Assembly (NCBI RefSeq): GCF_001570565.1
Contig: NZ_BBXE01000046.1
Coordinates: 1 to 64,000 of the forward strand
DNA length: 64,000 nucleotides
DNA from: Herbidospora yilanensis
GTDB lineage: Bacteria > Actinomycetota > Actinomycetes > Streptosporangiales > Streptosporangiaceae
Reading direction: 5' to 3'
Shown here: positions 7,328 through 28,953 of the stretch, piece after piece
Layout: every line of letters begins with the position of its first letter
How positions within the stretch are numbered: the stretch's first letter is position 1
Program-made: the position numbers and the translations under genes
Notes under the pieces: model-generated
Database searches by the model: none
Seen by the model: the letters and a program-made list of their open reading frames with translations, nothing else
Told to the model about the DNA's origin: nothing

Positions 7328-8500
7328 TCAACCGTCTACCCGCTCGATGAGCACCGCCACCCCGAGCCCGGCCGCGCCGCTGACGGCCGCGACGCCGTAA
7401 CGGCCGCCCAGGCGGGTCAGGTTCTCGGCGCACTGCCCGACCATGATCGCGCCGGTCGCGCCGAACGCGTGCCCCATCGCGATCGTGCCGCCGCCGGGGT
7501 TGAGCCGGTCGGGCCCCGGCCCGAGGTCGCGCCGCAGCCGCAGGCACAGGGCGGAGAAGGCCTCGGCGAACTCGTAGACGTCGACGTCGGCGGGTGTCAG
7601 GCCGGCCCTGGCGATCACCTTCTCGACGGCGGCCTGCCCGGCGGTCAGCATGATCACCGGGTCGACGGCGGCGGTCGCGGCGCCCACGACCCTGATCGGG
7701 CTCTCGGTGGTGCCGAGGACCAGCAGCGCCGCCCCGTCGGCGAGCGCGGGGGAGGAGCCGACCGTGTGGTGGTGGACGATCTCGCCGACCTCCGGACGGG
7801 CCTTCAGCACGATGGCGTCCTGCGCCGGGTCGGCGAAGGCGGGGGCCAGCGCGGCCAGCGACTCCATCGAGGTGCCCGGCCGGATCAGCTCGTCGCGGCC
7901 GAAGACCGACCCGTCGGCGCGGGCCACCGGGATCACCGAGCCGGCGAAGTCGCCCCGGTCCCAGGCCGCCGCGGCCTTCGTGTGGGTCTCGACGGCGTAT
8001 TCGTCGAGCTGCTCGCGGGTCCAGCCGTCGATCGTGGCGTTCAGGTCGGCGGCCACCCCCATGTGGATCGACCCGACCCGCTCGATCGTCGCCGGGTCGG
8101 TCCAGAGGGGCGCGCGATCGCTGAACATGGCCACCCGGGACACGCTCTCGACGCCCCCGGCGACCGCGAGGTCCATCTCCCCGGCGCGGATGCGCGCCGC
8201 CACCTGCGCCACGGCGTCGATCCCACTGGCGCAGAACCGGTTGACCGTCCCGCCGGGGACGGCGTCGCCCCATCCGGCCAGCAGGGTGGCCACCCGGGCG
8301 AGGTTGCCGCCCTGCTCGCCGACCTGCGAGGCCGACCCGACGATCACGTCGCCGACGGCGGCCGGGTCGAGCCCCCGGCCGACGAGCGCCCGTTGCAGCC
8401 CGGCCACCAGGTCGACGGGGCTCCGGTGGTGCAGCGAGCCCTTCGGGGAGCCCTTGGCCCGGGGGGTGCGCACGTAGTCGAGCACGTAGACGTCAGACAC
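7328..8500 (-). CDS. Thiolase (acetyl-CoA C-acyltransferase type)
   Basis: Degradative-type thiolase of 390 aa, the usual family length. The acylated Cys lies in TVNRFCASGIDAV, the His motif is around VGEIVHHHTVGS, and the C-terminal GGGTIAMGHAFGATG corresponds to the GGxxAxGHPxGATG block with Pro replaced by Ala. This supports thiolytic cleavage of 3-ketoacyl-CoA. The GTG start (VSDVYVLDYVRTPRAKG) was chosen because the family begins there. The frame is open further upstream but runs into the divergent gene. Only 37 bp separate it from the divergent SCP2-like thiolase. Confidence 0.88.
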   Translation of the reverse strand: MSDVYVLDYVRTPRAKGSPKGSLHHRSPVDLVAGLQRALVGRGLDPAAVGDVIVGSASQVGEQGGNLARVATLLAGWGDAVPGGTVNRFCASGIDAVAQVAARIRAGEMDLAVAGGVESVSRVAMFSDRAPLWTDPATIERVGSIHMGVAADLNATIDGWTREQLDEYAVETHTKAAAAWDRGDFAGSVIPVARADGSVFGRDELIRPGTSMESLAALAPAFADPAQDAIVLKARPEVGEIVHHHTVGSSPALADGAALLVLGTTESPIRVVGAATAAVDPVIMLTAGQAAVEKVIARAGLTPADVDVYEFAEAFSALCLRLRRDLGPGPDRLNPGGGTIAMGHAFGATGAIMVGQCAENLTRLGGRYGVAAVSGAAGLGVAVLIERVDG

Positions 8501-8537
8501 GGTTGCACTGTAACTCTGTTTGTTGTAGTACGAAAGC

Positions 8538-9752
8538 ATGCCGGAAGCCGTATGGGTCCTGGGCGGCCACCAGACCGACTTCGCCCGCAACTGGTCCCGC
8601 GAGGGCCTCGACTTCGCCGACCTCACCGCCGAGGTGGTGCGCGAGACCCTCGACGACGCGGGCGTCTCCGCCGCCGACGTCGACGTCATCCACGTCGGCA
8701 ACGCCTTCGGCCAGCTCTTCACCGGCCAGGGCCAGCTCGGCGGCATGCCCGCCACGGTCGTGCCCGAGCTCTGGGACGTGCCCGCCACCCGGCACGAGGC
8801 CGCCTGCGCCTCCGGCGGTGTGGCCCTGCTCGCGGCGATGGCCGACATCGAGTCGGGCCGCTACGACTGCGCCCTGGTCCTCGGCCTGGAACTGGAACGC
8901 ACCGTCCCCGGCGACGACGCGGCCCGCCACCTGGGCGCCGCCGCCTGGGTCGGCCACGAGGGCCGGGACGCCACGTTCATGTGGCCCCACATGTTCAGCG
9001 CCCTCACCGACGAGTACGACCGCCGCTACGGGATCGACGAGGCCCACCTTCGCGCCATCGCCCGGCTGAACTTCTCCAACGCCGCGGCCAACCCCAACGC
9101 CCAGACCCGCAAGTGGACCTTCACCGGCGCGAGCTTCGCCGCCGACGACGCCGCCAACCCGGTCGTGGAGGGCCGCGTCCGCCGCACCGACTGCTCCCAG
9201 ATCACCGACGGCGGCGCGGGCCTCGTCGTGGTCGGCCGCCGTTTCCTGGAGCGGCGGCGGTCCACCCCCATGGCGCGGATCCTCGGCTGGGGCCACCGCA
9301 CGGTCGGCCTGCCGCTCGACCGGAAGCTCGCCCGCAGCGCCGGCCAGCCCTACGTGCTCCCCCACGTCCGCCGCGCGATCACCGACGCCTTCACCCGCGC
9401 CGGGCTGTCTTTGGCGGAAATCGACGGCATAGAGACGCACGACTGCTTCACCATGTCGGAGTACGCCGCGATCGACCACTTCGGCATCACCGCCCCCGGG
9501 GAGAGCTGGAAGGCCGTCGAGAACGGCGACCTGGAAATCGGCGGACGGATCCCGGTCAACCCCAGCGGGGGCCTGATCGGCGGGGGCCACCCGGTCGGCG
9601 CGACCGGGGTGCGGATGGTGCTCGACGCGTGCCGGCAGGTGGCGGGGCGGGCCGGGGCCTACCAGGTCGAGGGGGCCCGCCGCTTCGGCACGCTGAACAT
9701 CGGCGGCAGCACGACCACGACCGTCGGCTTCGTGATCGGAACAGGGGAGTAG
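8538..9752 (+). CDS. SCP2/lipid-transfer-type thiolase
   Basis: A 404-aa thiolase-fold protein. The nucleophile region is RHEAACASGGVALLAA and the C-terminal block is PSGGLIGGGHPVGATGVRM, which places it with the acetyl-CoA acetyltransferase/SCP-x group that often acts on branched or sterol-like side chains. It starts a rightward operon with the dioxygenase, whose ATG follows after 2 nt. No Shine-Dalgarno is visible. A TAGTAC hexamer six bases before the ATG is consistent with a leaderless transcript. Confidence 0.87.
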   Translation: MPEAVWVLGGHQTDFARNWSREGLDFADLTAEVVRETLDDAGVSAADVDVIHVGNAFGQLFTGQGQLGGMPATVVPELWDVPATRHEAACASGGVALLAAMADIESGRYDCALVLGLELERTVPGDDAARHLGAAAWVGHEGRDATFMWPHMFSALTDEYDRRYGIDEAHLRAIARLNFSNAAANPNAQTRKWTFTGASFAADDAANPVVEGRVRRTDCSQITDGGAGLVVVGRRFLERRRSTPMARILGWGHRTVGLPLDRKLARSAGQPYVLPHVRRAITDAFTRAGLSLAEIDGIETHDCFTMSEYAAIDHFGITAPGESWKAVENGDLEIGGRIPVNPSGGLIGGGHPVGATGVRMVLDACRQVAGRAGAYQVEGARRFGTLNIGGSTTTTVGFVIGTGE

Positions 9753-13771: not shown

Positions 13772-14929
13772 TCAGCGGCGGAACGGGCCCGTCACGCAGT
13801 AGGTGATGCCGCCCGAGGACGAACCCGACGTGCCCCGCTGCGAGGAGAAGTAGAGGCGGTCACCCGCCGGGTTGAAGGCCGGGCCGGTGATCTCCGACGA
13901 GCTCTGGTTGTTGATGCGCAGGAACGTCGAGATCTTGTCGTCGGGGGTGATCATGCAGATCTCCATGTTGCCGCCGTCCTCGGCGACGTAGAGGTCGCCC
14001 GCGGTCGAGCCCGTCACGTTGTCGACGCCGGTCAGCGGGGGCGTGCCCGAGGTGACCAGGCTGTCGTCGTAGGCCAGTTCGTAGGTGTTGTTCGTCAGGT
14101 TGACCTGCCAGACGCGGTTGTCGCCCTTGGTGGTGAACCAGACGGTGTCGTCGGCGTAGTAGCAACCCTCGCCGCCGTTGAAGGACTTCGAGCCGGACAC
14201 CTGGTTGCGGGTCGCCGTCGGGTCGCCGTCGGGGTCGGGGACGTTCGCCCAGGTGAACGAGCCGCTGGTGGCCGAGCCCGCCACCATGACCTGGAGGGTG
14301 CCCGACGACAGGTCGCCCCACGTGGTGGGCACGAAGCGGTAGAAACGGCCGTTGGACTCGTCTTCGGTGAGGTAGATCACGCGCCGGACCGGGTCGGCCG
14401 CCGCGGCCTCGTGGGTGAACCGGCCCATCGCCGGACGCTGGACCGCCGCGCCGCCGAAGGGGTAGGTCTCGTACACGAAGCCCCTGCTCACCTCTTCGCA
14501 CGACAACCACGTGTTCCACGGGGTCTTGCCGCCCGCGCAGTTCTGCCGGGTGTTCGACAGGATGCGGTTGGCCGAAACGACGTTGCCGGCCGAGTCGAAG
14601 CGGATCGCCGAGGCCCCGCCGCCGGGGTTGATCTCGGAGTTGGAGACGTAGATCCAGCCCGATCCGTCGGCGAAGCAGGCGCCGCCGTCGGGGGCGTCGT
14701 GCCAGGTGTACGAGGTGCCGGAGACCACCTGCCGCGATCGGGCCACCACCCGGCTGGTGAAGCCGGCGGGCAGCCGGATCCCGTTGGCGTCGGCCGCCTG
14801 GAGGGCGCCGTAGGGGCTGGTCGCCGGCTGGGCCGGGGCCGCCAGCGCGGCGCCCTGCCAGAGCGATCCGGAGAAGGCCACCGTGCTCGCGCCCAGGACG
14901 GAAGCACGAAGGAAATTGCGTCTTTCCAT
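13772..14929 (-). CDS. PhoX-family secreted phosphatase-like protein, Tat substrate
   Basis: A 385-aa protein with a Tat-type leader (MERRNFLRASVLGASTVAFS, then cleavage near AAPA). The body has DUF839/PhoX features: HDAPDGGACFADGSGWIYVSNSE, EDESNGRFYRFVP and GDLYVAEDGGNMEI, matching beta-propeller strands with acidic metal ligands. PhoX enzymes are Ca/Fe-dependent extracellular alkaline phosphatases. This one is much shorter than the roughly 600-aa classical PhoX, so it may be a compact branch with a different substrate. The ribosome site is excellent (AAGGAGGTAAG). A GTTCACC unit resembling a PhoP box lies upstream. Confidence 0.8.
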   Translation of the reverse strand: MERRNFLRASVLGASTVAFSGSLWQGAALAAPAQPATSPYGALQAADANGIRLPAGFTSRVVARSRQVVSGTSYTWHDAPDGGACFADGSGWIYVSNSEINPGGGASAIRFDSAGNVVSANRILSNTRQNCAGGKTPWNTWLSCEEVSRGFVYETYPFGGAAVQRPAMGRFTHEAAAADPVRRVIYLTEDESNGRFYRFVPTTWGDLSSGTLQVMVAGSATSGSFTWANVPDPDGDPTATRNQVSGSKSFNGGEGCYYADDTVWFTTKGDNRVWQVNLTNNTYELAYDDSLVTSGTPPLTGVDNVTGSTAGDLYVAEDGGNMEICMITPDDKISTFLRINNQSSSEITGPAFNPAGDRLYFSSQRGTSGSSSGGITYCVTGPFRR

Positions 14930-14970: not shown

Positions 14971-14986
14971 TTTACACAGGGTGAAC
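14965..14986 (-). promoter_or_regulatory. PHO-box-like site upstream of the PhoX gene
   Basis: Read leftward, an exact GTTCACC unit is followed 11 nt later by a weaker unit (GTAAACA), the spacing of PhoP direct-repeat units in Streptomyces. It sits about 7 bp upstream of a TACAGT -10-like box, where PhoP activation would be expected. Confidence 0.45.
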
Positions 14987-15044
14987 GGAATGTGGGCGCT
15001 GAGTGACGGGTTTCGTATGACCGAGTTTCCGGCATCATCCCGAA

Positions 15045-17393
15045 ATGAGCCCGTACACCCTGCCGTTGACCAGCGAATCGGCCGACGCCGGCACCGCCGG
15101 CGGGAAAGGCGCCTCCCTCGCGCGGCTGGCGTCGGCGGGGCTGCCGGTGCCGGACGGTTTCCACGTCACCACCGCCGCCCGCGAGGCCGGGATGAACCGC
15201 GAGGTGACCGCCGAGATCTCGGCGGCCTACCGGGCGATGGGAGACGACGTGCCGGTCGCCGTGCGGTCGTCGGCCACGGCGGAAGACCGGCCCGACGTGT
15301 CGTTCGCCGGGCAGCACGACACCTACCTCGGGGTCCGGGGGGTCGCGGCGGTGATCGACGCGGTCGAGCGGTGCTGGCGGTCGCTCGACAACGACCGGGC
15401 GCGGGCCTACCGGGAGCGGGAGGGCATCGCCCGGCCGGGGATGGCGGTGGTCGTCCAGGAGCTCGTGGACGCGTCGGTGTCCGGGGTGATGTTCACCGAG
15501 CTCGACGGGAAGCTGGTGATCAACGCGGCCTGGGGCTGGGGGGAGACCGTCGCGGGCGGCACGGTCACGCCCGACGTCTACGCCGTCGACCGCGACGGCC
15601 ACATCGACGAGACGATCTCCGACAAGGCCGTCATGGCGGGCACCTCGGGGCTCGTGCCGGTGCCGCCCGACCTGCGGTCGGTGCCCACGCTGACGCGCGA
15701 GCAGGTGATGGCGCTGGCCGGGCTCGGGCGGCGGATCGAGATCCTGTACGGGATGCCCATGGACGTCGAATGGGGGATCGCCGCGGCGAAGCCGTACATC
15801 CTGCAGGCCCGGCCGATCACCGGGCGGCGGGAGGTGTGGAACGACTCGCTGCGCGGCGACTACCTGTGGACCAACGGCAACCTCGCGGAGGCCATCCCCA
15901 GTGTGATGACGCCGGTGACCTGGTCGGTGGTCCAGCGGTTCATGGCCGACGCGATGATCGCCGGGTCGTTCGCGGGACACCCGGTGTGCGGGAACATCGG
16001 CGGGCGTTTCTACCTGAACCTGTCGGTCCTGCTGACCATCGGCGACTCGCTCGGCCTCAGCCGGATGATCAGAGACACCCTGGAGCCGGTCTTCGGCCGG
16101 CTGCCCGAGGGCGCCGAGGTCCCGCTGCTGCCGCTGACCAGAGCCCGGTCGGTGCGCGGCACGCTCCCGCTGCTGCGGGGCCGGCTCGCCCTCATCCCCT
16201 ATGCCCGGCGGCTCGACCGCATGTTGCCGCGCCTGCGGCGCCGGGCCGACGACCTGCGGACCCTGATCGCCGTCAGCAACGACCTGGCCGGCCTGTGGCG
16301 GGGCGCGGTCGAGCCCTACTTCCGCGAGTGCAACCGCCTCCTGGCCGCCGCCGGACGGCAGGACGCCGGCAGCCTGATCTTCCTGCGCAACCGCCTGGAG
16401 AACCTCGTCGGGGCGGCCGACGCCAACGCGCTGACCAGCGGGTTCGGCGCCCACCTGGAGAGCATGGGGCCGCTCCTCGGCCTGGGCGAGGTGAAGCGCG
16501 GCCGGTTGCCCCGGCAGGAGTACGCCCACCGCTGGGGGCACCGCTGCCCCGACGAGCTCGAACTGTCGGCCGCCCGGCCGGGCGAGGATCCGGAGTGGGT
16601 CGACCGGGAGCTCGCCGGCCTGTCGGAGGACCCGATCCTCCTGCTGAGCCGGCAGGAGGAGGTGTCGCGGGCGGCGTGGCGGCGGTTCAAGGAGCACGAC
16701 CCGCGCGACGCCTACCGCTACTGGGGCCTGATCCGGCGGTGGGGCCAGATCGTCCGGGCCCGGGAGGAGGCCCGGTCGGAGGCGGTCCGGGCGTTCTGGG
16801 TGCTGCGCGACTGGGTGCGCCGGGCCGGGTCGGTCACCGGGGCCGGCGACGACGTGTTCTTCCTGCGGATCGGCGAGATCCTGCGGCTGCTCCGGGGCGA
16901 TCGGGGGGTGCTCGGCCTGACGGACGTGCGGCGGGCGGCCTACGAGCACTACCGGTCGCTGCCGCCCTACCCGGGGGTGATCCGGGGCGCGTTCGACCCC
17001 GAACGGTGGGCGGCCGACCCCGACCGGCGCTCCGACTACGCCGACGCCGCGAGGGGGCCCTCCGCGCGGGACGGGTCGATCAACGGCTTCCCCGGCGCGG
17101 CCGGGGTGGTGGAGGGCATCGCCCGCGTCATCCCGTCGATGACCGAGGCGCAGCACCTGGGCGCCGGGGAGATCCTGGTGACGAACGTGACGAACGTCGG
17201 CTGGACCCCGCTGTTCCCACGCGCCGCCGCCGTGGTCACCGACGTCGGCGCCCCCCTGTCGCACGCCGCGATCGTCGCCCGCGAGCTGGGCATCCCCGCC
17301 GTCGTCGGCACGGGCGACGCGACCACCCGGATCCGCGACGGGGCCCGGGTCCGGGTCGACGGCTCGGCCGGGACGGTCGAGGTCCTCGACTAG
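15045..17393 (+). CDS. PEP-synthase/rifampicin-phosphotransferase-like dikinase
   Basis: A 782-aa protein. It has an N-terminal ATP-grasp (PPDK_N) domain over about residues 1-290, with GGKGASLARL and VPVAVRSSATAED. A divergent helical middle region spans about 300-680. A C-terminal swivelling phosphohistidine domain contains GAPLSHAAIVARELGIP (catalytic His near residue 745). The protein ends right after the His domain and lacks the C-terminal PEP/pyruvate TIM barrel of true PEP synthases. That is the architecture of rifampin phosphotransferase (Rph), which phosphorylates an antibiotic hydroxyl using ATP. The middle domain is too divergent for me to assert rifamycin as the substrate. It is monocistronic or grouped with ychJ 14 nt downstream. 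Confidence 0.75.
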   Translation: MSPYTLPLTSESADAGTAGGKGASLARLASAGLPVPDGFHVTTAAREAGMNREVTAEISAAYRAMGDDVPVAVRSSATAEDRPDVSFAGQHDTYLGVRGVAAVIDAVERCWRSLDNDRARAYREREGIARPGMAVVVQELVDASVSGVMFTELDGKLVINAAWGWGETVAGGTVTPDVYAVDRDGHIDETISDKAVMAGTSGLVPVPPDLRSVPTLTREQVMALAGLGRRIEILYGMPMDVEWGIAAAKPYILQARPITGRREVWNDSLRGDYLWTNGNLAEAIPSVMTPVTWSVVQRFMADAMIAGSFAGHPVCGNIGGRFYLNLSVLLTIGDSLGLSRMIRDTLEPVFGRLPEGAEVPLLPLTRARSVRGTLPLLRGRLALIPYARRLDRMLPRLRRRADDLRTLIAVSNDLAGLWRGAVEPYFRECNRLLAAAGRQDAGSLIFLRNRLENLVGAADANALTSGFGAHLESMGPLLGLGEVKRGRLPRQEYAHRWGHRCPDELELSAARPGEDPEWVDRELAGLSEDPILLLSRQEEVSRAAWRRFKEHDPRDAYRYWGLIRRWGQIVRAREEARSEAVRAFWVLRDWVRRAGSVTGAGDDVFFLRIGEILRLLRGDRGVLGLTDVRRAAYEHYRSLPPYPGVIRGAFDPERWAADPDRRSDYADAARGPSARDGSINGFPGAAGVVEGIARVIPSMTEAQHLGAGEILVTNVTNVGWTPLFPRAAAVVTDVGAPLSHAAIVARELGIPAVVGTGDATTRIRDGARVRVDGSAGTVEVLD

Positions 17394-20022: not shown

Positions 20023-20826
20023 ATGCCGTACATCACCACGAACGACGGGGTCAGGATCTTCTACAAGGACTGGGGGACCGGGCAGCCCGTCGTCTTCAGC
20101 CACGGCTGGCCGCTCACCGCCGACGTCTGGGACAACCAGTTGCGCCTCGTCGCCGAGCACGGCTTCCGGGGCCTGGCCCACGACCGGCGCGGCGGCGGGC
20201 GGTCCGACCAGCCGTGGAACGGCAACGACATGGACACCTACGCCGACGACCTGGCCGCGCTGCTCGACACGCTCGACCTGCGCGGCGTCGTGCTGGTCGG
20301 CCACTCGACCGGCGGCGGCGAGGTCGCCCGCTACATCGGCCGCCACGGCACCTCCCGGGTCGACAAGGTGGTGCTGGCGAGCGCCGTCCCGCCGCACATG
20401 GCCGCCTCGATGCCGATCGAGGTCTTCGACGAGATCCGCGACGGCGTCGCCGGCGACCGGTCGCAGTACTACCGGGAGCTCGCGCTGCCCTTCTACGGCT
20501 TCAACCGGCCCGACGCCGAGATCAGCCAGGGGGCGATCGACGCGTTCTGGATGTGGAGCATGCAGGTCGGGGTCAAGAGCGCCTTCGAGTGTGTACGGGC
20601 GTTCTCGGAGACCGACTTCACCGGGGATCTGCCGCGGATCGACGTGCCGACCCTGGTCGCCCACGGCGACGACGACCAGATCGTGCCGTTCGAGGCGTCG
20701 GCCCCGAAGACCGCCCGGCTGATCCCCGACGCGACCCTCCAGGTCTACCCGGGGGCGCCCCACGGGATCAGGGGCGACTACGAGAAGGCGTTCAACGCCG
20801 ACCTGCTGACGTTCATCACGAAGTGA
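20023..20826 (+). CDS. Alpha/beta hydrolase (non-haem chloroperoxidase/esterase group)
   Basis: A 267-aa single-domain alpha/beta hydrolase. The oxyanion-hole motif is FSHGWPL, the nucleophile elbow is [13 protein letters not shown], the catalytic Asp lies in [11 protein letters not shown] and the catalytic His in YPGAPHGI. Sequence and length match the cofactor-free chloroperoxidase/arylesterase group, whose physiological role is usually esterase or perhydrolase activity. It has no signal peptide. The last 11 nt overlap the convergent deaminase gene. Confidence 0.9.
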
Positions 20827-21295
20827 TCGTGCGCCGGTGGAGGGCCTTCATCTCGGCCTCGAACTCCGGCGCCGGGCCCCCGACGGCCACGCCGGGCGCC
20901 ACCTCCTGGATCGGGAGGGGGCGCACCGGCGCCGACGGCGCGCCCCACCCCTCGCGCCATTCGGACAGCTGAGCGGCCGAGACGGCGTACACGATGCGGC
21001 CGAGGCCCACCCACGCGTGGGCGGCCGAGCACATCGGGCAGTGTTCGCCGGAGGTGTAGACGGTCGCGCCCGCCCGCTCCTCCGGCGTCAGGTTGGTCGC
21101 GGCCCAGCGGGCCAGTTCGAACTCGGGGTGGCGGGTCTGGTCGCCGGCGGCGGTCCGGTTGTGGTCTTCGGCCAGGACGGTCCCGTCGGCCCCGGCGAGC
21201 ACCGAGCCGAACGGCTCCTCGCCCGCCTCGAACGCCTCGTGGGCCAGCTCGACGCAGCGCCGCAGATGCCGCAGGTCCGTCTCGGAAACCGTCAT
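20816..21295 (-). CDS. Zinc-dependent nucleoside/guanine deaminase
   Basis: A 159-aa cytidine-deaminase-fold enzyme. The HPEFE motif supplies a zinc His and the proton-shuttle Glu (HxE type), and [14 protein letters not shown] supplies the two zinc Cys (PCxxC type). Of the subclasses, guanine or general nucleobase deaminase fits best. It is the last gene of the sugar ABC operon: the permease stop and this ATG are separated by only 2 nt, with AAAGGG upstream. That coupling to a sugar importer is unusual and may indicate that the imported compound is a nucleoside or aminated sugar. Confidence 0.85.
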
Positions 21296-21297
21296 CG

Positions 21298-22122
21298 TCA
21301 CCCTTTCACCGCACCGACCAGCCCGTTGACGAAGTAGCGCTGCAGGAAGGCGAACAGCGCGATCACCGGCAGCACCATGATCAATGATGCCGCGAGCACC
21401 TCGTTGTAGCGGACGACGGTACCGGAAATCAGGGACTCCAGGCCCAGGGGCAGCGTGTAGAGCGACTCGTCGTTGAGGGAGACCCGGCTCAGCACGTACT
21501 CGTTCCAGGTCGGCACGGCCGTCAGCACCGCGATCGTGACGTGCGCGGGCCGGGTCAGCGGCAGGTGGACGCGCAGGAAGATCCGCGCCTCGCTCGCGCC
21601 GTCGGCCCGCGCGGCCTCGCGCAACTCCTTGGGGACGCTCCGGTACGCCGCCGTCAGCAGCAGCACCGTCAGCGGGGCCGTGCCGTTGACGAAGGGCAGC
21701 ACCAGCCCCATGTGGGTGCCGAGCAGGCCCAGCCGGTTCTCCAGGATCACCACCGGCAGCAGCACCGTGATCCCCGGCACGAACAGCAGCGCCACGAACA
21801 ACCAGTAGAGCGCCTTCGCGCCCGGGAACCTGAGCACCGCGAACGCGTAGGAGGCCAGGCTGTAGACCACCAGCACGCCCAGCACCGTCAGCCCGGTCAC
21901 GATCAGGCTGTTGCGGAAGTAGTCGACGAACGCGAGCTGGTTCCACGTGGTGACGATCGTGTCGAAGGTCGGCTCGCGCGGGATCAGGTGTCCGCCGTCG
22001 AGGATCTCCTCCCGCGTCTTGAACGCCCCCGACACCATCCACAGGAACGGATAGAGGCTCAGCACGGCGTAGATCGTCAACGCCGCGTAGGCGGCCGTCT
22101 TCGCGACGCGGGCGGCGGTCAC
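21298..22122 (-). CDS. Carbohydrate ABC permease, MalG type
   Basis: A 274-aa inner-membrane subunit with six hydrophobic helices. The EAA motif VPKELREAARADGASEARIFLRV identifies the loop that contacts the ATPase. The GTG start overlaps the MalF-type stop (GTGA) with GAGGAGGG just upstream, so translation is coupled. No ATPase is encoded in the operon. A shared MsiK-type ATPase elsewhere is the usual actinomycete solution (inference from family biology). Confidence 0.9.
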   Translation of the reverse strand: MTAARVAKTAAYAALTIYAVLSLYPFLWMVSGAFKTREEILDGGHLIPREPTFDTIVTTWNQLAFVDYFRNSLIVTGLTVLGVLVVYSLASYAFAVLRFPGAKALYWLFVALLFVPGITVLLPVVILENRLGLLGTHMGLVLPFVNGTAPLTVLLLTAAYRSVPKELREAARADGASEARIFLRVHLPLTRPAHVTIAVLTAVPTWNEYVLSRVSLNDESLYTLPLGLESLISGTVVRYNEVLAASLIMVLPVIALFAFLQRYFVNGLVGAVKG

Positions 22123-23021
22123 CGCACCCTCCTCAGCAGCCGGGCGTTGGCCAGCGTCAGCAGCACGGCCCCCGCGAACAACAACCAGCCCAGCGCGCTC
22201 GACAACCCGAGCGTCGGCGCCAGCCCCTTGAAGAAGGCCAGTTCGTAGGTCTCCAGGGCGAGCACGCTGGTGTGCCCGCCGGGCCCGCCGTTCGTCATGA
22301 TCAGGAAGATCTGGAACCCGTGCAGCGAGTCGCGCACGCCCAGCAGCACGATCCCGGCCGTCATCGGCGTCAGCAGCGGCACGATGATCCGCCGAAGCAC
22401 CTGGCGGGGGGCCGCGCCGTCGATGCGGGCCGCCTCGACCATGCTCGGGTCGATCGCCTGGAGCCCGGTGAGGTAGAGCAGCGTCGCGGTCGGCACCGCC
22501 GACCAGACCAGGATCAGGATCAGCGTCCAGAGCGCCGTCGACGGATCGGCCAGCCAGCCCTGCGGCCGGGCCAGCGAGCCGAGGCCGGCCGAGCGCAGCA
22601 TCAGGTTGATCGAGCCCTCGGGTTCGAGCAGGTAGCGCCAGGCGTAGTAGGTGGCGATTCCGGTGGTGACGTACGGGAGGAAGTAGACCGAGCGCAGCAG
22701 TCCCCGCAGGCGGCGCACGGAGTTGAGCGTCACCGCCAGCGGCAGCGAGATCAGCACGGTCAGCAGCGGCACCGCCACGCACACGTGGAGGGTGTTCCAC
22801 GCGGCCCGGCGCACCGCCGGGGCCAGCGACGGGTCGGCCCACAGCAGGTCGGCGTAGTTCTCCAGGCCCACCCAGATCCAGTTCGGGGTGAACCCGTTCC
22901 ACGACGCGAAGCTCAGCGCGAGGCCGCTGCCGATCGTGTAGACGCCCATCACCGCGAAGAGCGCCACGGCCGGGAACACGAACGCCCAGCCGGTGAGCCA
23001 CTCCTTCCACCGGGTCGCCAT
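22119..23021 (-). CDS. Carbohydrate ABC permease, MalF type
   Basis: A 300-aa membrane protein with six hydrophobic helices. Its EAA loop reads DPSMVEAARIDGAAPRQVLRR. It forms the heterodimeric channel with the overlapping MalG-type subunit. The ATG follows the binding-protein stop TAG by two bases, consistent with one polycistronic mRNA. Family members import mono- or oligosaccharides. The substrate is not readable from the permease. Confidence 0.9.
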   Translation of the reverse strand: MATRWKEWLTGWAFVFPAVALFAVMGVYTIGSGLALSFASWNGFTPNWIWVGLENYADLLWADPSLAPAVRRAAWNTLHVCVAVPLLTVLISLPLAVTLNSVRRLRGLLRSVYFLPYVTTGIATYYAWRYLLEPEGSINLMLRSAGLGSLARPQGWLADPSTALWTLILILVWSAVPTATLLYLTGLQAIDPSMVEAARIDGAAPRQVLRRIIVPLLTPMTAGIVLLGVRDSLHGFQIFLIMTNGGPGGHTSVLALETYELAFFKGLAPTLGLSSALGWLLFAGAVLLTLANARLLRRVR

Positions 23022-23023
23022 GG

Positions 23024-24406
23024 CTACTCGGCGGACTTCCACATCGCGCCGAAGACGGCGTCGAGCTCCCGGCCGGCCCGCGCCGGGTCGAGCTCCTTCA
23101 GCGGTGACAGCCGCACGAACACCTCTCCCGGTTTGACCTGGTCGTAGCCGCCCGGGAAGAACGTCGTGTCGCCGGCGTCGTAGGTGCTCTCCGGGGCGCC
23201 GGTGAAGTACTTCTGCAGCGCGGCCAGCTCCGGGCCCATCAGCGTGGCCGCCTCGGCGCCCAGATCGGTGGCCGGGAGGTCGAGCGACTCCTTGGCCACC
23301 ACGCCCGCCCCGGCCGGCGAGGTGACGTAGTCGATCCACTTCAGCGCGGCGGCCCGGTTCTCGGACGTCGAGGTGACACCGAGGGAGGTCAGAGCCAACG
23401 GGGCCATCACGATGTCCTTGTGGGCGCCCGACTCCGAGGGCGGGATCGGGAAGGCGAGCACCTTGTCGGGCGACATGCCGTTCTGGGCCAGGAACGCCAG
23501 GGTGAACGTGCCGCCGACGTTGTAGGCCGACTTGCCCTGGGCGAAGGCGATGTCGGCCTCGTCGATGCCGAGGGTGGTCGCGCCGGGCATCCAGTAGGGC
23601 GTGAGCTGCCCGTACAGGTCGAGGGTCTTGACCCCGCCGGGGGACCCGAACCCGGCCGTGGTGCCCTTGGCGAACAGCCCCTGGAACTTCTCCCTGCCCA
23701 GGTAGGCGTGGGCGAGCGGCTGGTAGATCCAGTTGTAGCCGACCTGGCTGACCTTCAGGCCGAGCGAGAGGCCGCCCGCCCGCGGGTCCTTCTCCGTGGA
23801 CGTCTTGAGCGCCGCCACGAACTCCTCCCAGCTCGCCGGGGGAGTGTCGGGGCTGAGCCCGGCGGCCTGGAGTTTCTCCTTGTTGGCGTAGACGATGCCG
23901 AACGCTCCCGCGGTGAACGGGACGGCGTACATCGACCCGGCCTTGGCCTGCTTGAACGGCGAGTCGGACGCCGCGCGGTCGATCCGGCCCTGGTCGAGCA
24001 CGCCCGCGTTCCGCGTGGACGGCAGGAACCGCGCCCTCCAGGCGTCGTTCACGTCGCCGCCGATGTCGGCGAGCAGGCCGGAGGCGCCGAGCTCCAGGTC
24101 CTCACCCGCGGCGTGGGCCTCCAGGACGTCGGGCAGGTCGCCCGTCTGGGCGGCGCTCTGGATCTTGCTCTTGAAGACGTCGTCGGGCGTGACGGCCTCG
24201 ACCTTAACGCTGATGCCGGTCTGCGCGGTGAACCGCTCGGCGGCCTTCTGGAGCGCGGTCGCGTGCGACTGCTTGAAGGTCCACATCGTCAGCGACTGAC
24301 CGGACGCGGCCGGTTCGCCCGGTTGCCCGCCGCCTGACGAGCAACCGGCGGCCACCAAGGTGGCGACGGCGGCCAAGGACAGGATTCGCGCTTTCATAGA
24401 TGCCAT
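23024..24406 (-). CDS. Sugar ABC transporter substrate-binding lipoprotein
   Basis: A 460-aa extracellular solute-binding protein (family 1). The leader MASMKARILSLAAVATLVAA is followed by a lipobox Cys at VAAGCSSGGG, so the mature protein is lipid-anchored outside the membrane. The two-lobe SBP fold is recognisable from LTMWTFKQSH and the Trp/aromatic-rich C-terminal lobe. It heads the importer operon. A promoter with a tandem 15-bp repeat over its -35 lies upstream. ATG 24406 has GGGGG five bases upstream; ATG 24397 is an alternative. Confidence 0.9.
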   Translation of the reverse strand: MASMKARILSLAAVATLVAAGCSSGGGQPGEPAASGQSLTMWTFKQSHATALQKAAERFTAQTGISVKVEAVTPDDVFKSKIQSAAQTGDLPDVLEAHAAGEDLELGASGLLADIGGDVNDAWRARFLPSTRNAGVLDQGRIDRAASDSPFKQAKAGSMYAVPFTAGAFGIVYANKEKLQAAGLSPDTPPASWEEFVAALKTSTEKDPRAGGLSLGLKVSQVGYNWIYQPLAHAYLGREKFQGLFAKGTTAGFGSPGGVKTLDLYGQLTPYWMPGATTLGIDEADIAFAQGKSAYNVGGTFTLAFLAQNGMSPDKVLAFPIPPSESGAHKDIVMAPLALTSLGVTSTSENRAAALKWIDYVTSPAGAGVVAKESLDLPATDLGAEAATLMGPELAALQKYFTGAPESTYDAGDTTFFPGGYDQVKPGEVFVRLSPLKELDPARAGRELDAVFGAMWKSAE

Positions 24407-24428
24407 GTCGGCCCCCTGGGGGTGGGAC

Positions 24429-24442
24429 GCAAATCGTTAAGA
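24429..24442. promoter_or_regulatory. Degenerate copy of the GCAAAACG operator
   Basis: GCAAATCGTTAAGA matches 10 of 14 positions of the perfect operator at 28331-28344, and lies between the importer promoter and its first gene. It could let one regulator control both promoters. The similarity is modest. Confidence 0.35.
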
Positions 24443-24452
24443 CTGTCCCTGG

Positions 24453-24480
24453 AATTTACACGCGGGACATTCTGTGTCAA
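24453..24480 (-). promoter_or_regulatory. Promoter of the sugar ABC importer operon
   Basis: Read leftward, TTGACA and TAAATT are separated by 16 bp, about 47 bp upstream of the binding-protein ATG. The -35 lies inside the tandem 15-bp direct repeat, an arrangement suited to regulation. Confidence 0.6.
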
Positions 24481-24503
24481 GGGTCAGGGTGTCAAGGGTC
24501 AGG
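24474..24503. repeat. Two perfect tandem copies of a 15-bp repeat
   Basis: GTGTCAAGGGTCAGG occurs twice head to tail. One copy overlaps the importer -35 and the other overlaps the stop codon of the TetR-LacI gene. Each copy contains a TTGACA on the leftward strand. It may be a direct-repeat regulator site or a duplicated promoter element. Confidence 0.6.
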
Positions 24504-26040
24504 CCGATTCGCGGCGGACCAGCCGGGCCGGGATGATCGTCTCGGTCGAGCTCTCGGCGACCGTGCCCGACAACCGGGCCAGCAGGCGTTCGCCGCAGGC
24601 GCGGCCGATCTCGCGCGCCGGGTTGGCCATCGTGGTCAGCCGGGGTGAGACCAGGCTCGCGGCCTCGATGTCGTCGAAGCCCATCACCGCCAGGTCGCCG
24701 GGGATGCGCAGGCCGCGGGCCATCGCGGCGTCGATGGCGCCCAGGGCCATGATGTCGTTGGCGCACAACACCGCGTCGGGCGGATCGGCCAGGCCGAGCA
24801 GCCACGACGTGCCGCCCGCGCCGCCCGAGCGGCTGAAGCTGGTGTGCACGACCAGCCCGGGATCGGCCTCGATCCCGGCCGAGGCCAGGGCCAGCCGGTA
24901 GCCGGAGACCCGTTCGGCGGCGGGCCCCTCGGCGCGTGGCCCGCAGACGAAGCCGATGCGCCGGTAGCCCGTTTCCAGCAGGTAGCGGGTCGCCTCGGCG
25001 GCGCCGCCCTCGTCGTCGCTGTGCACCAGGTCGACGCCGTCCTGGACCTGCACGCCGCCCAGCCGGACCACCGGCAGCCCGGCCTCGATCACCGGCAGCA
25101 GGTCTTCGGCGTGGGTGTGGAAGACGGCGAAGGCCAGCCCGTCGACCTGCCGGGCGATCATCTGGTCGATCGCGGCACGTTCCATGTCGCGGTCGCCGTC
25201 GGTGTTGCTGATGATCTCGTCGTAGCCGGCCGGCCGCAGCACGTCCTGCAACCCCCGGGCCAGCGCCGGATAGAACGGGTTGGTGATGTCGGGGATGACC
25301 AGCCCGATCGTCTGGCTGCGGTTGGTGCGCAGCCCCCTGGCCAGCACGTTGGGCCGGTAGCCGAGCCGGTCGATGGCCTCCAGCACCCGCCGCCGGGTCT
25401 CCGCCGCGACCGGGCGGCGCCCGTTGAGCGTGTGGGACACCGTGGTCGCGCTGACCCCGGCGGCCCGCGCGACCAGCAGGATGCTCGGCCGCCGCGGGTC
25501 GGCGCGCGGGGCGGGGGCACGCCGGACCGGGGGCGCGGCGAACGAGGCCAGGGCCTCTTCGAGCCGGTCGCGGGCCTCCTCGGCGGCGGTGGGCGCGGGC
25601 ACGCCGTCGGCGACCCGCAGGATCGCCGACTCCCACACCCGCCGGGCCGCCGCCGCGATCAGCGTGCCGGTCACCCCCGCGCCGAGCTCCTCCTCCCGCG
25701 CCGCGAACGCCTCCCGGGCGTGCGCGCGCAGGTCGGCGTCGTCGCGGTAGACCCGCGCCCGCTCCCGGTCGATGACGCCGGTCGCCGCCACCCACCCGGC
25801 CACGACCTGCGGCACCGGCTCCTCGGGCAGCGGCCCGCGCGGCAGCAGCGGCGGGTCGGCGTCGAAGAAGAGCTGCTCCTTCGCCGGGAAGTAGTTGAAC
25901 ACCGTCTTGACCGCGACGTCGGCCTCGGCGGCGACGTCGGCGACCGTGACGGCGGCGAACCCGCGTTCGCCGAACAGCCGCAGCGCGGCCCCGGTGATCG
26001 CCCGGCGCGTCTCGGCCTTCTTCCGCTCCCGCCGATCCAT
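24499..26040 (-). CDS. TetR-LacI fusion transcriptional regulator
   Basis: A 513-aa single chain carrying two complete regulator modules. Residues 10-52 are a TetR-type HTH (VTVADVAAEADVAVKTVFNY, FPAKEQLFF), followed by a helical region to about 170 resembling a TetR ligand/dimer domain. A Pro/Arg linker (171-185) follows. Residues 186-238 are a LacI-type HTH with hinge helix (VARAAGVSATTVSHTLNG, GYRPNVLARGLRT), and residues 244-513 are a periplasmic-binding-protein-like sensor (IGLVIPDITNPFYPALARGL). The frame is continuous. ATG 26040 is preceded eight bases upstream by TATACG and no Shine-Dalgarno, so it may be leaderless. It lies between the dehydratase and importer genes and is their likely repressor. 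Confidence 0.85.
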   Translation of the reverse strand: MDRRERKKAETRRAITGAALRLFGERGFAAVTVADVAAEADVAVKTVFNYFPAKEQLFFDADPPLLPRGPLPEEPVPQVVAGWVAATGVIDRERARVYRDDADLRAHAREAFAAREEELGAGVTGTLIAAAARRVWESAILRVADGVPAPTAAEEARDRLEEALASFAAPPVRRAPAPRADPRRPSILLVARAAGVSATTVSHTLNGRRPVAAETRRRVLEAIDRLGYRPNVLARGLRTNRSQTIGLVIPDITNPFYPALARGLQDVLRPAGYDEIISNTDGDRDMERAAIDQMIARQVDGLAFAVFHTHAEDLLPVIEAGLPVVRLGGVQVQDGVDLVHSDDEGGAAEATRYLLETGYRRIGFVCGPRAEGPAAERVSGYRLALASAGIEADPGLVVHTSFSRSGGAGGTSWLLGLADPPDAVLCANDIMALGAIDAAMARGLRIPGDLAVMGFDDIEAASLVSPRLTTMANPAREIGRACGERLLARLSGTVAESSTETIIPARLVRRESA

Positions 26041-26084
26041 GGAGGGATCGTATATCCACACGCACCTTGCATCGGGTGTAAGTT

Positions 26085-27338
26085 CTACGGCGGCTCGATC
26101 CCCCCGTCCGGGCGGCGGACCCGGCCCGCCCACCGTTCGTGCAGGTGCGTCTCGGGCGGGAACCTCGCGGCGGCGCTCTCGTCGAGGTCGACGCCCCAGC
26201 CGGGGGCGTCGTGGGGGAACAGGTAGCCGCCGACCGGGTTGATCGTGCCGGGGAAGACCTCGACGACCGGATCGGGGTAGACGTGGCCCTCCTGGATCTG
26301 GAACGCGTGCGTGGTGACGTCGAGGGCGATGTTGGCCGCCGAGCCCACGGGGGAGACGTCGGCGGGGGAGTGCCAGGCGGTGCCGACCCCGTTCAGCTCG
26401 CAGAGCGCGACCAGTTTCCGGACCGGGGTCAGCCCGCCGACGGCGGAGACGTGCAGCCGCAGCAGGTCGACCCCGCCGTTCATGACCAGCCGCGCCGCGT
26501 CGGCGACCGAACCGAGCTGCTCCCCGGCCGCGATCGGCATCGGCGCCGCCGCCCTGACCTCGGGGAGCCGGTCGTAGTGCTCGGGGGCGATCGGGTCCTC
26601 CAGGAAGAACAGCCGATAGGGGGCCAGCGCCCGCGCGAGCCCGACCGCCTGCTTCACGGTGAGCCGCGAATGGACGTCGTGCAGCAGCCCCGGCTCCTCG
26701 CCGAGCTCCTCCCGGGCCCGTTCGAAGAGCCTCGGGGTGTCGCGGAGGTAGCGCTGCACGTCCCAGCCGTCGGGATAGGGCGCCTCCGGGTAGCCGCCCG
26801 GCGAGCCGGGAGCGCCGTAGTGGCCCAGGCCGGGCGCGCCGGTCTGCAGCCGGACGTTGCGGTAGCCCGCCGCCAGCAGCCGCCGGGCGTGGTCGAGGGT
26901 CGCCTCGACGGTCGCGCCCTCGGCGTGAAGGTAGGTGTCGGCGGCGGCCCGCACCCTGCCGCCGAGCAGCTCGTAGACGGGCATGCCGGCGCGTTTGCCC
27001 ATGATGTCCCAGAGGGCCTGGTCGACCCCGGACAACGCGCTGTTCAGCACCGGCCCGCCGCGCCAGTACGACGAGTAGTGCACCATCCGCACGATGTCCT
27101 CGATGTCGGCCGGATGGCGGCCCACGAGCATCGGCCCGACGTGCGCGTCGACGGCGGCGGCCACGGCGTGGAACCGCTGGGTGAAGGTGGCGCAGCCGAG
27201 GCCGTACAGGCCCGGATCGGAGGTGTCGACCCGGACGACCACCAGTGGCGGCCCCCCGGGCGCGGTCACGATCGACCGGACCCGGGTGATCCTCAGGTTG
27301 TCGCGCGGCTGCCAGGGGGCCTGGGTCTCGGGAATCAT
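26085..27338 (-). CDS. Enolase-superfamily sugar-acid dehydratase (ManD/RspA-like)
   Basis: A 417-aa protein with an N-terminal capping domain and a C-terminal TIM barrel. The metal-ligand series is visible: HDVHSRL (Asp, with a catalytic His two residues on), FFLEDP (Glu) and AAGEQLGS (Glu). That order and the DxH pair are typical of the D-mannonate dehydratase/RspA subgroup, which dehydrates sugar acids to 2-keto-3-deoxy acids using Mg2+. The start has AGGAGTG seven bases upstream. The dehydrogenase upstream and the sugar importer downstream support a uronate/aldonate catabolic role. The precise substrate is not determined. Confidence 0.85.
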   Translation of the reverse strand: MIPETQAPWQPRDNLRITRVRSIVTAPGGPPLVVVRVDTSDPGLYGLGCATFTQRFHAVAAAVDAHVGPMLVGRHPADIEDIVRMVHYSSYWRGGPVLNSALSGVDQALWDIMGKRAGMPVYELLGGRVRAAADTYLHAEGATVEATLDHARRLLAAGYRNVRLQTGAPGLGHYGAPGSPGGYPEAPYPDGWDVQRYLRDTPRLFERAREELGEEPGLLHDVHSRLTVKQAVGLARALAPYRLFFLEDPIAPEHYDRLPEVRAAAPMPIAAGEQLGSVADAARLVMNGGVDLLRLHVSAVGGLTPVRKLVALCELNGVGTAWHSPADVSPVGSAANIALDVTTHAFQIQEGHVYPDPVVEVFPGTINPVGGYLFPHDAPGWGVDLDESAAARFPPETHLHERWAGRVRRPDGGIEPP

Positions 27339-27462
27339 GTGGCCACTCCTGAGCTGTCGGCGATCGAAAGGGCGATGGCCGGGTGTCTTCCGGAGCGGTC
27401 CGCCATCGGGAGTAGGCATACGGCGCGATGGCTCGCGGGCAGTGGTGTTCGGGTGCGGCGGA

Positions 27463-28317
27463 TCATCTAGTCGCTGCCGGGAAGAGGTGCCGGGCACGGA
27501 ACCCGAGCAGGGTCTCGGCCGCCGTCAGGTCGATCGGCGCCTCGCGGCCCTCGAACCTTTTCCGGCGTTCCACATCGGGATGGAAGCGGTCGAGCAGTTC
27601 CTCGGTCGGCTGGGGGGCGAGGGTGTCGGGGGCCGTCACGAAGACCGCGTGGTAGCCGGTGAGGGGGACCGTGACGGCCAGCCAGGCCGCTCGGGCGGCA
27701 TCGCGGTCGTCGAGGTAGGTCCAGAGTTCCGACGCCCCCAAGCCGGGGTCGTCGGCGTAGCGGGCGGCGGTGTCGTCGAACTTGTCGCCGGGCCCGCCGA
27801 GCAGCGGATAGCGCAGCGCCACCACGCCCGTCCCGAACCGCCGGGCCATCATCTCGCCGGTCGCCTCGTCGGCCTGCTTGGACAGGCCGTAGGGGTCCTC
27901 GTTCTGGAGCGGGAGCCGCTCGTCGAGCGGCAGGTAGGCGGGGTGCAGCGGCTTGGCGGCCCACGGCATCCCGGTCACCGAGAGGCTACTGGCCAGCGCC
28001 GCCCGGGGCACCCCGAGCCGCCCGGCCTCCTCCAGCACGACGAACGTCGCCCGGGTGTTGCCGCAGTAGACCTCCTCGGGGGTGCCCAGCGTCGGCGCGG
28101 GGATGGCCGCGAAGTGCAGCACCGCGTCGACCCCGGCCAGCGCCCGCCGGACCGTCGCGGGATCGCCCGCGTCGCCCACCACGACCCGTTCCGCGCCCGA
28201 CGGCTCCCGATCGAGCGCGGTCGCCTCGACCCCCAGCTCGGCCAGCAGCGCGAGCGTGGCCCTGCCCAGCCTGCCCGCGGCCCCCGTGACCAGCACCCGG
28301 CGGGGTGTGTCGGCCAT
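27463..28317 (-). CDS. NAD(P)-dependent sugar epimerase/dehydrogenase (SDR)
   Basis: A 284-aa extended short-chain dehydrogenase. The Rossmann motif is VTGAAGRLGRA, the catalytic Ser region is LASSLSVTG and the catalytic pair is YGLSK (Tyr-x3-Lys). Size and motifs fit uronate dehydrogenase or sugar epimerases. With the downstream ManD-like dehydratase it would oxidise a sugar to its acid for dehydration (inference). It is the first gene of the leftward locus, with a strong AGGAGGTGATCG ribosome site. A LacI-type operator and a TTGACA -35 lie just upstream. Confidence 0.85.
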   Translation of the reverse strand: MADTPRRVLVTGAAGRLGRATLALLAELGVEATALDREPSGAERVVVGDAGDPATVRRALAGVDAVLHFAAIPAPTLGTPEEVYCGNTRATFVVLEEAGRLGVPRAALASSLSVTGMPWAAKPLHPAYLPLDERLPLQNEDPYGLSKQADEATGEMMARRFGTGVVALRYPLLGGPGDKFDDTAARYADDPGLGASELWTYLDDRDAARAAWLAVTVPLTGYHAVFVTAPDTLAPQPTEELLDRFHPDVERRKRFEGREAPIDLTAAETLLGFRARHLFPAATR

Positions 28318-28330
28318 TCGATCACCTCCT

Positions 28331-28344
28331 GCAAAACGTTTTGC
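28331..28344. promoter_or_regulatory. LacI-type operator of the sugar-acid locus
   Basis: GCAAAACGTTTTGC is a perfect 14-bp palindrome with the central CG typical of LacI/GalR operators. It lies between the promoter and the ribosome site of the dehydrogenase gene, so binding would block transcription. The TetR-LacI fusion encoded three genes on is the obvious candidate ligand. Confidence 0.85.
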
Positions 28345-28358: not shown

Positions 28359-28373
28359 CGGCGTACCAGGGTT

Positions 28374-28379
28374 TGTCAA
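28374..28379 (-). promoter_or_regulatory. -35 element of the sugar-acid locus
   Basis: On the leftward strand this is an exact TTGACA. The -10 17-18 bp on is weak (TTTTGC/TTTGCT) and is formed by the operator half-site itself. Confidence 0.5.
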
Positions 28380-28413
28380 CGCGCTTCGCCGGGCGATCTT
28401 ATAGCCGGTATAT

Positions 28414-28953
28414 CTACGGGAAGTCGATGAAACCCGGCGGCACCCGGTCGGTCAGCCACACCCCGTTGGCGCTGATCCGGAACGCGTGCCCCTCGGCGTG
28501 CATGCGCCCAGCCCGCACGGTCAGCACGACCGGACGCCCCCTCCGCGCCCCCACCCGCTCGGCCGTCGCCACGTCGGGAGACAGGTGCACGTGGTGCCGC
28601 GCCATCCGCACCAGCCCCTCGGCCCGGATCGCGGCCAGCGCCGCCGGGGCGGTCCCGTGGTAGAGCACCTCGGGCGGCTCGACCACGGGCAGGTCGAGCT
28701 CGACCTCGATCGAGTGGCCCTGGCTGGCTCTGATGAGGCCGCCCTCGATGACGTACCGCCTCTTGTCGTTGGCCTCGACCACGTGGTCGAGCTCGGCCCG
28801 GTCGAAGGGGAAGCCGTGCGCGGCGGCGGCCGCGATCAGGTCGTCGACGGAGGTCCAGCCCCGCGCGTCGAGGACCAGGCCGATGCGTTCCGGCTCGTGC
28901 CGCAGGTGCTTGGCCAGGTATTTGGAGATGCGCACCATGCGCCGTTCGTCCAT
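28414..28953 (-). CDS. kptA: RNA 2'-phosphotransferase (Tpt1/KptA family)
   Basis: A 179-aa NAD-dependent enzyme that removes a 2'-phosphate from RNA ends, giving ADP-ribose cyclic phosphate. The family signature residues are in place: ISKYLAKHLRHEP (Lys/Arg-His), IRASQGHSIEVE (RxxQGHS), LYHGTA and HHVHLSPD. Bacteria lack tRNA introns, so the physiological substrate is uncertain; some homologues cap or modify RNA termini. ATG 28953 gives the usual length. An in-frame ATG 29 codons upstream would add a poorly conserved leader. It is divergent from the GH128 gene. Confidence 0.9.
   Translation of the reverse strand: MDERRMVRISKYLAKHLRHEPERIGLVLDARGWTSVDDLIAAAAAHGFPFDRAELDHVVEANDKRRYVIEGGLIRASQGHSIEVELDLPVVEPPEVLYHGTAPAALAAIRAEGLVRMARHHVHLSPDVATAERVGARRGRPVVLTVRAGRMHAEGHAFRISANGVWLTDRVPPGFIDFP

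Follow-up and report, generated by a model that had tools for sequence, protein, structure and literature searches.

A minus-strand gene cluster in the window (the whole 64,000-nucleotide stretch of Herbidospora yilanensis DNA that was analyzed) encodes, in order, an NAD-dependent epimerase-family protein that we take to be uronate dehydrogenase-like (labeled UDH), a ManD-like dehydratase (DEH), a TetR-LacI fusion protein, and the solute-binding protein (SBP) and two permeases of a sugar-type ABC transporter (Table 1). These neighbors agree with the sugar-acid locus proposed in an earlier note on this DNA. The same gene order was found at 13 of the 23 fusion loci from named organisms. DEH is missing from the locus in L070 and in all five Planotetraspora, where UDH and SBP are present, and four Nonomuraea loci (L060, L063, L068, and L078) carry the fusion gene with none of the three. 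At L060, L063, L078, and L158 (all in the Nonomuraea group), the fusion gene lies outside the operon and adjoins the genes of two large proteins that are probably secreted. In Microbispora siamensis (L077), a LacI-only gene occupies the operon position of the fusion, between DEH and SBP. A cytidine-deaminase-like gene (20816-21295) follows the permeases in the window and at the six named Herbidospora loci; it had no match at the other 22 of the 28 loci.

Table 1. Features of the TetR-LacI fusion locus in the window
Feature	Position	Strand	Detail
ABC transporter permease 2	21298..22119	minus	annotation search
ABC transporter permease 1	22119..23021	minus	annotation search
ABC transporter solute-binding protein (SBP)	23024..24406	minus	annotation search
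LacI-like half-operator GTCTTAACGATTTGCG (candidate)	24428..24443	minus	before the transporter operon
TetR-LacI fusion gene, 513 aa	24499..26040	minus	ATG at 26040, stop 24499-24501
LacI sugar-binding-type sensor domain, residues 243-513	24502..25314	minus	Pfam, NCBIfam, structure-chain match
LacI hinge helix (predicted), residues 232-239	25324..25347	minus	AlphaFold2
LacI helix-turn-helix, residues 187-231	25348..25482	minus	Pfam and AlphaFold2
Flexible linker, residues 169-186, Pro/Arg/Ala rich	25483..25536	minus	pLDDT <50 at 169-182
TetR module, residues 1-168	25537..26040	minus	TetR_N 15-59 = 25864-25998; nine predicted helices
Conserved GATATACGATC, own promoter of the fusion	26046..26056	minus	TATACG (26049-26054) 8 bp before ATG
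T site CTTACACCCGATGCAAG at the fusion's own promoter (candidate)	26066..26082	minus	25 bp before ATG
ManD-like (mannonate/galactonate-type) dehydratase (DEH)	26085..27350	minus	below NCBIfam cut-offs; start codon provisional
NAD-dependent epimerase-family protein (UDH)	27463..28317	minus	annotation search
L site, LacI-type candidate operator GCAAAACGTTTTGC	28331..28344	minus	only genome match, <=1 mismatch
-35 hexamer TTGACA, catabolic promoter	28374..28379	minus	bases 1-6 of TTGACAAACCCTGG (28366-28379)
T site GATATACCGGCTATAAG upstream of the catabolic-promoter -35 (candidate)	28398..28414	minus	overlaps -10-like TATAAG

The fusion frame runs through all 513 codons without interruption. The earlier note had described this frame, leaving its strand unstated, and had read the product as a TetR helix-turn-helix (HTH) and helical domain, a Pro/Arg linker, and a LacI HTH, hinge helix, and sensor, a reading that Pfam and AlphaFold2 bear out. 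The three Pfam domains that it named were all found on the 513-aa product, each above its cut-off: TetR_N (PF00440; residues 15-59; 3.4e-16), the LacI HTH (PF00356; residues 190-231; 1.1e-15), and Peripla_BP_1 (residues 243-510; 5.2e-35). NCBIfam TetR models match about the first 60 residues and LacI models match from residue 183-190 onward; among the matches listed for the fusion protein, no LacI or TetR model reaches its curated cut-off. In an AlphaFold2 model of the full fusion, built on 44 sequences, residue 168 is followed by a linker of low pLDDT, the LacI HTH, a predicted hinge helix of the LacI/GalR kind, and the periplasmic-binding-like sensor; at a pTM of 0.55, the model does not fix how the two halves are placed with respect to each other. 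TetR-family proteins usually stand alone at about 200 aa, and the HTH of LacI/GalR regulators is normally N-terminal, whereas the fusions comprise 513 to 639 aa and the LacI HTH begins at residue 187.

In this full-length model, the nine helices before the linker span residues 3-26, 33-40, 44-50, 54-59, 76-89, 92-100, 102-119, 123-144, and 149-168. Folded alone, the TetR half was modeled with a pLDDT of 88.9 and a pTM of 0.83. A Foldseek search of the PDB gave 17 matches at an E value of <=0.001, with a top TM-score of 0.66 (SCO0337, 2dg7) and one of 0.61 for MftR (8x0a); judging in part by title, the 50 PDB matches listed are presumably TetR-family or TetR-like regulators. Because of the nine helices and these matches, the TetR half of the model looks complete in topology, and an all-helical C-terminal domain with dimerizing helices is predicted (best TM-score, 0.66).

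The fusion protein is shortest in the seven Herbidospora rows of our alignment (513 aa) and reaches 553 to 639 aa in the other 19 rows, one of which ends at the end of its locus. The linker varies from 18 to 103 residues across the 26 aligned fusions, always in frame. In 17 of 24 fusions, including that of the window, the 25 codons preceding the LacI HTH contain no ATG, GTG, or TTG, so the LacI half lacks a conventional internal start there, and its independent translation from the linker was rejected for these 17. Such translation is conceivable in the other seven, of which one has an ATG and one a GTG with a ribosome-site-like sequence before the LacI HTH.

The architecture, which the earlier note had suggested seeking in other actinomycetes, occurs in at least 29 of the 341 genomes of the family Streptosporangiaceae (the source genome included). 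These comprise all 7 genomes of the Herbidospora genus group and 22 from six further genus groups. The search used the N-terminal part as the query and retrieved the best loci, so that weaker cases may have been missed, and 4 of the 29 fusion frames end at the limits of the retrieved stretches. The 23 named fusion loci (6 from Herbidospora, 3 from Acrocarpospora, 6 from Nonomuraea, 5 from Planotetraspora, 1 from Microtetraspora, and 2 from Streptosporangium) came from a scan of an 84,980-species collection with patterns in the LacI half, 80 of 93 loci being kept; the six Herbidospora loci are 94 to 97% identical to the fusion. No fusion outside the family was seen in that scan, in 197 genomes sampled from the class at a strict limit (E value of 1e-50), or in 296 sampled from the phylum (E value of 1e-80), with the source genome included in both samples. 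Several candidates were rejected. Two class matches (G496 and G505) that reach back to query residues 68-73 have no TetR half, and five of the family's TetR frames listed at 555 to 772 codons (L175 to L179) proved to be stand-alone TetRs whose GC-rich frames are over-long, the proteins themselves having 203 to 217 aa. In L109, L119, and L086, LacI is preceded by long frames whose translations have, by eye, a random GC-rich look and not that of TetR.

The closest LacI-only relatives are three Sphaerisporangium loci (L072, L073, and L075) and L077; these orthologs are 74 to 78% identical. With the TetR half as a tblastn query (E value of 1e-8), no match was found beside any of the four in the stretches examined; homologs with the two halves always in separate genes, which the earlier note would have taken as a refutation, were thus not found. 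A Nonomuraea zeae locus (L076) ends at a contig end and was excluded from both groups. In a LacI-half tree of 69 rows built by a quick method, the four LacI-only relatives cluster with the fusions in a single group (support of 98, starred); L076 falls inside it, and Microbispora falls among the fusions on unstarred branches. The fusion label requires two changes on this tree, and the starred branches allow one. The simplest reading of this pattern, and a likely one, is that the fusion arose once and was later lost. No stand-alone ortholog of the exact fusion TetR was seen among the loci examined.

Two classes of candidate operator accompany the fusion genes. Expectation maximization on 20 fusion UDH promoters yielded the motif cGCAAAaCGtTTTGCg, an even palindrome with a central CG that was present at all 20 and also in LacI-only L077. 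LacI operators typically carry a central CG, as stated in the excerpted text of one study (PMC4052901), and this motif, designated L, is a candidate operator of that type. In the 7.85-Mb source genome, the L pattern with <=1 mismatch matched only at 28331-28344, and the reversed control matched nowhere; this is the segment that the earlier note had proposed for binding assays, and it now stands as a candidate LacI operator. A slightly shorter pattern matched exactly in 24 of the 28 other fusion genomes, with one place for the reversed control across all 28. In 23 of the 24, an exact site is found at the fusion locus; in G203, the match is only on another contig. Among the genomes of L060, L063, L078, and L158, an exact L site occurs only in G203 (L060). 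Four of the five Planotetraspora genomes have a second L site, which in L162 and L163 lies upstream of the relocated DEH gene.

The other segment singled out for binding assays, 24429-24503, corresponds to the transporter promoter and includes a putative LacI half-site. The related sequence TCTTAACG(A/T)TTTGC lies between the regulator and SBP at all 24 loci that have an SBP, the four LacI-only loci included; its matrix score is low (8.4 to 10.3), and it is more than 1 kb before SBP at 7 of the 24. L-like matches with <=1 mismatch were found in 107 of the 341 family genomes, some of them fusion free, as would be expected of a widespread LacI operator type; those in L169 and L170 precede other LacI genes. 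Since L is also present in LacI-only relatives and in fusion-free genomes, it would appear to belong to the LacI half and to predate, or be independent of, the fusion.

The second class, designated T, emerged from the 100 bp preceding the fusion start at 24 loci. The motif is a palindrome, cTTaCAgccgcTGtAAg, that scored >=16 in 22 of these 24 training sequences; L063 (-16.3) and L064 (9.0) have no good site. A palindromic operator at the own promoter is common, though not universal, in the TetR family, and T is a candidate for such an operator. With L masked, a de novo search of the 20 UDH promoters gave as its best motif.tTacAgccgcTgtAa., which matched the own-promoter palindrome, and T as trained on own promoters scored >=13 at 15 of the 20. 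All five failures were the five Planotetraspora promoters. Sites at the Acrocarpospora UDH promoters are weak (13.2). Among eight lineage representatives, seven UDH promoters scored >=13, a count that none of 2,000 column-permuted palindromic matrices reached (maximum of 3); at most 2 did so in 1,000 resamplings of the promoters. In fusion genomes outside the training set, T was found at 5 of 5 fusion promoters and at 3 of 4 UDH promoters, being absent from the UDH promoter of L161. The T pattern with <=1 mismatch is not enriched genome-wide (13 places in the source genome versus 19 for the reversed control), and the two T sites of the fusion locus are among those 13 places.

T was not found at the regulators or target promoters of the four LacI-only relatives. 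No site scoring >=13 was found in the examined stretches of LacI-only L072, L073, and L075, and LacI-only L077 has none at its regulator or UDH promoter, its one T match (15.2) lying about 1.3 kb upstream of UDH. L167, in which no fusion was detected and no regulator was seen, retains DEH, an L site, and a remnant of UDH, and has no T. These negative controls are few: a UDH or DEH promoter is available only in L077, which is of the same species as L168, and in L167. Where the fusion lies outside the operon, T is found at its own promoter in L060, L068, L078, and L158 and is absent in L063.

Several further observations concern these elements. Two T sites lie near the fusion gene in L060, L078, and L158. 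At L159, a UDH-like stretch of about 105 codons (8375-8762; 40% identity) still has L and T sites in front. A GTGCATGATCACG-like element occurs once or twice upstream of UDH at four Planotetraspora loci (L062, L067, L071, and L074). A third match to T in the window, CGTTCACCCTGTGTAAA (13.1) at 14971-14987, was set aside as PHO-box-like; it lies between a minus-strand gene with a signal-like start (13772-14929), which it adjoins, and a gene at 15045-17393, and we take it to be a PHO box and not a T site. A match like it was found at six of the seven Herbidospora loci and is closer by about 2 kb at one of the six.

Stand-alone TetR genes provide a further view of T recognition. Of the 17 loci ranking next after the fusions (L050 and L180 to L195), seven in the Nonomuraea group (L050, L180 to L184, and L186), with the HTH sequence DVAVQTVFNHF or near to it, all have own-promoter palindromes of the type ATGTAGTnACTACAT, and four of the seven have a second T-like match 17 bp away. 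These palindromes share the center AGTnACT and the spacing of T and differ from it in the outer letters. Among the remaining ten, T-like palindromes were found in L187, L191, and L192, and the rest have no clear one. The palindromes, which were judged by palindrome score and eye and without a chance control, support, without proving, the idea that the TetR head reads T.

At the fusion's own promoter, T occupies the expected -35 position upstream of the conserved GATATACGATC, within which TATACG is a probable -10 element, and its distance from the ATG suggests a leaderless start of the fusion mRNA. Synonymous divergence among the seven Herbidospora genes is low in the first 60 codons (25861-26040; pS of 0.068 versus 0.15 to 0.16 for the remaining folded regions), perhaps in connection with the start of a leaderless mRNA. 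Both sites are present at 15 UDH promoters. Measured from the start of the -35 element, T is 10 to 30 bp upstream in 12 of them and 68 to 69 bp upstream in the 3 from Acrocarpospora, and L is 42 to 47 bp downstream. With T upstream and L downstream of the -35 element, the two sites bracket the core promoter. The T-L distances range from 53.5 to 111.5 bp and show no helical phasing; this speaks against a rigid loop, though not against flexible bivalent binding.

We interpret the fusion, with a probability of roughly two in three, as a bivalent regulator that joins two working repressor modules in one polypeptide, the TetR head autoregulating the gene and both heads acting at the UDH promoter. 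The LacI head would be the ancestral local regulator of the sugar-acid locus, repressing the UDH-DEH promoter from the L site just downstream of the -10 region and also the transporter operon via the related half-site. Fusion of a TetR-family gene in front of the LacI gene may then have occurred in an ancestor within the Streptosporangiaceae, bringing in the palindrome T of the TetR head, which covers the fusion promoter and would thereby confer autoregulation. A second T upstream of the UDH -35 element, present in most lineages seen, would let the two heads bracket that promoter. We infer that each head recognizes its own site (T for TetR, L for LacI), that each acts as a repressor, and that occupancy rises when both sites are bound. 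The two separately conserved operator classes make it likely that the protein has two DNA-binding surfaces, as had been proposed, and on the pattern of sites each head appears to keep its own DNA site beside the same sugar-acid genes. The two ligand pockets and the AND/OR gate that the earlier note had also suggested are more conjectural.

A more elaborate possibility is that a dimer or tetramer clamps the UDH core promoter, TetR upstream on T and LacI downstream on L, and acts as a logic gate that integrates two ligands and is released only when both are present, the operator of the new head having been gained stepwise, first for autoregulation and then at the target promoter. T and L do flank the -35/-10 region at 15 UDH loci, the linker between the heads is flexible, and T alone or L-type sites alone are found at other promoters, which makes their convergence at UDH distinct. 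The spacing, however, is unphased and extends to 110.5 to 111.5 bp in Acrocarpospora, Planotetraspora manages without T at UDH, no ligand is known, and the pTM of the full model leaves the placement of the halves undefined, so that we regard this arrangement as conceivable but doubtful. If it were true, with a clamp and two ligands, the locus would represent a genetically encoded two-input gate created by gene fusion.

The two halves differ in how strongly they are constrained. A comparison of the seven Herbidospora genes gave dN/dS values of 0.25 (TetR HTH), 0.35 (TetR C-terminal domain), 0.04 (LacI HTH), and 0.09 (sensor); purifying selection thus acts on each half, more loosely on TetR. In the 24-row alignment, the TetR HTH is strongly conserved, and the middle of the TetR half is the most variable part of the fusion, with low-complexity inserts in relatives. 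TetR ligand pockets are formed in the region of helices 4 to 7, and the variability and inserts there suggest that the TetR sensor of the fusion may be degenerate. This faster evolution and hypervariable middle would suit a protein in which the LacI half does all the regulation and the TetR half is a passenger module for dimerization or folding, T being read by another TetR or serving as a promoter element; LacI alone suffices in Microbispora and Sphaerisporangium, and the T site at the Herbidospora UDH promoter overlaps the -10-like TATAAG. The conservation of the TetR HTH speaks against such a passenger, as do the T sites at the own promoters of four off-operon fusions (though not L063), the LacI-only regulators without T, and the like palindromes at the own promoters of some stand-alone TetR kin, and we consider it unlikely. 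A sequencing or annotation artifact, in which a frameshift joins two neighboring genes, is ruled out for practical purposes by an in-frame join that is repeated in 29 genomes of seven genus groups with linkers of such different lengths.

The locus offers a candidate operator for each head, LacI-only orthologs in sister genera, and a small local regulon whose promoters are of three kinds (with T alone, with an L-type site alone, and with T plus L). Together these make the question of how a fused second head gains its sites and alters regulation testable, and the protein may provide a natural template for two-input repressors.

Compared with LacI/GalR regulators such as CcpA, RbsR, and PurR, residues 187 to 512 of the fusion match full LacI-family chains almost entirely (best match, 1rzr_G, "Glucose-resistance amylase regulator"; 7.3e-61); a hinge helix is predicted, and the central CG of the candidate site L resembles that of the LacI regulons in the excerpted portion of PMC4052901. 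The fusion differs from them in that its LacI HTH is internal, with a TetR module fused to the N terminus. With TetR regulators such as SCO0337 and MftR, it shares the HTH, nine predicted helices, and a palindrome (T) at its own promoter, but it has a short hypervariable pocket region and a complete LacI-type protein at the C terminus. Among the open-licence PubMed Central papers searched, we found no naturally occurring TetR-LacI fusion, characterized or otherwise. According to the authors of P2TF, writing in 2012, bacterial genomes seem commonly to encode regulators with several DNA-binding domains, yet they had found no experimentally characterized example; the portions of their paper drawn on here name no TetR-LacI case and give no operators (PMC3532121). 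A structurally known natural fusion is PafBC of Arthrobacter aurescens, which, according to the excerpts of its description used here, likewise places two HTH regulator modules with a short linker in one actinobacterial polypeptide (PMC6789036). PafB and PafC are, in the same excerpts, close WYL-family homologs that otherwise form a heterodimer (PMC6789036), whereas the TetR and LacI modules of the present fusion come from unrelated families, each apparently with an operator class of its own.
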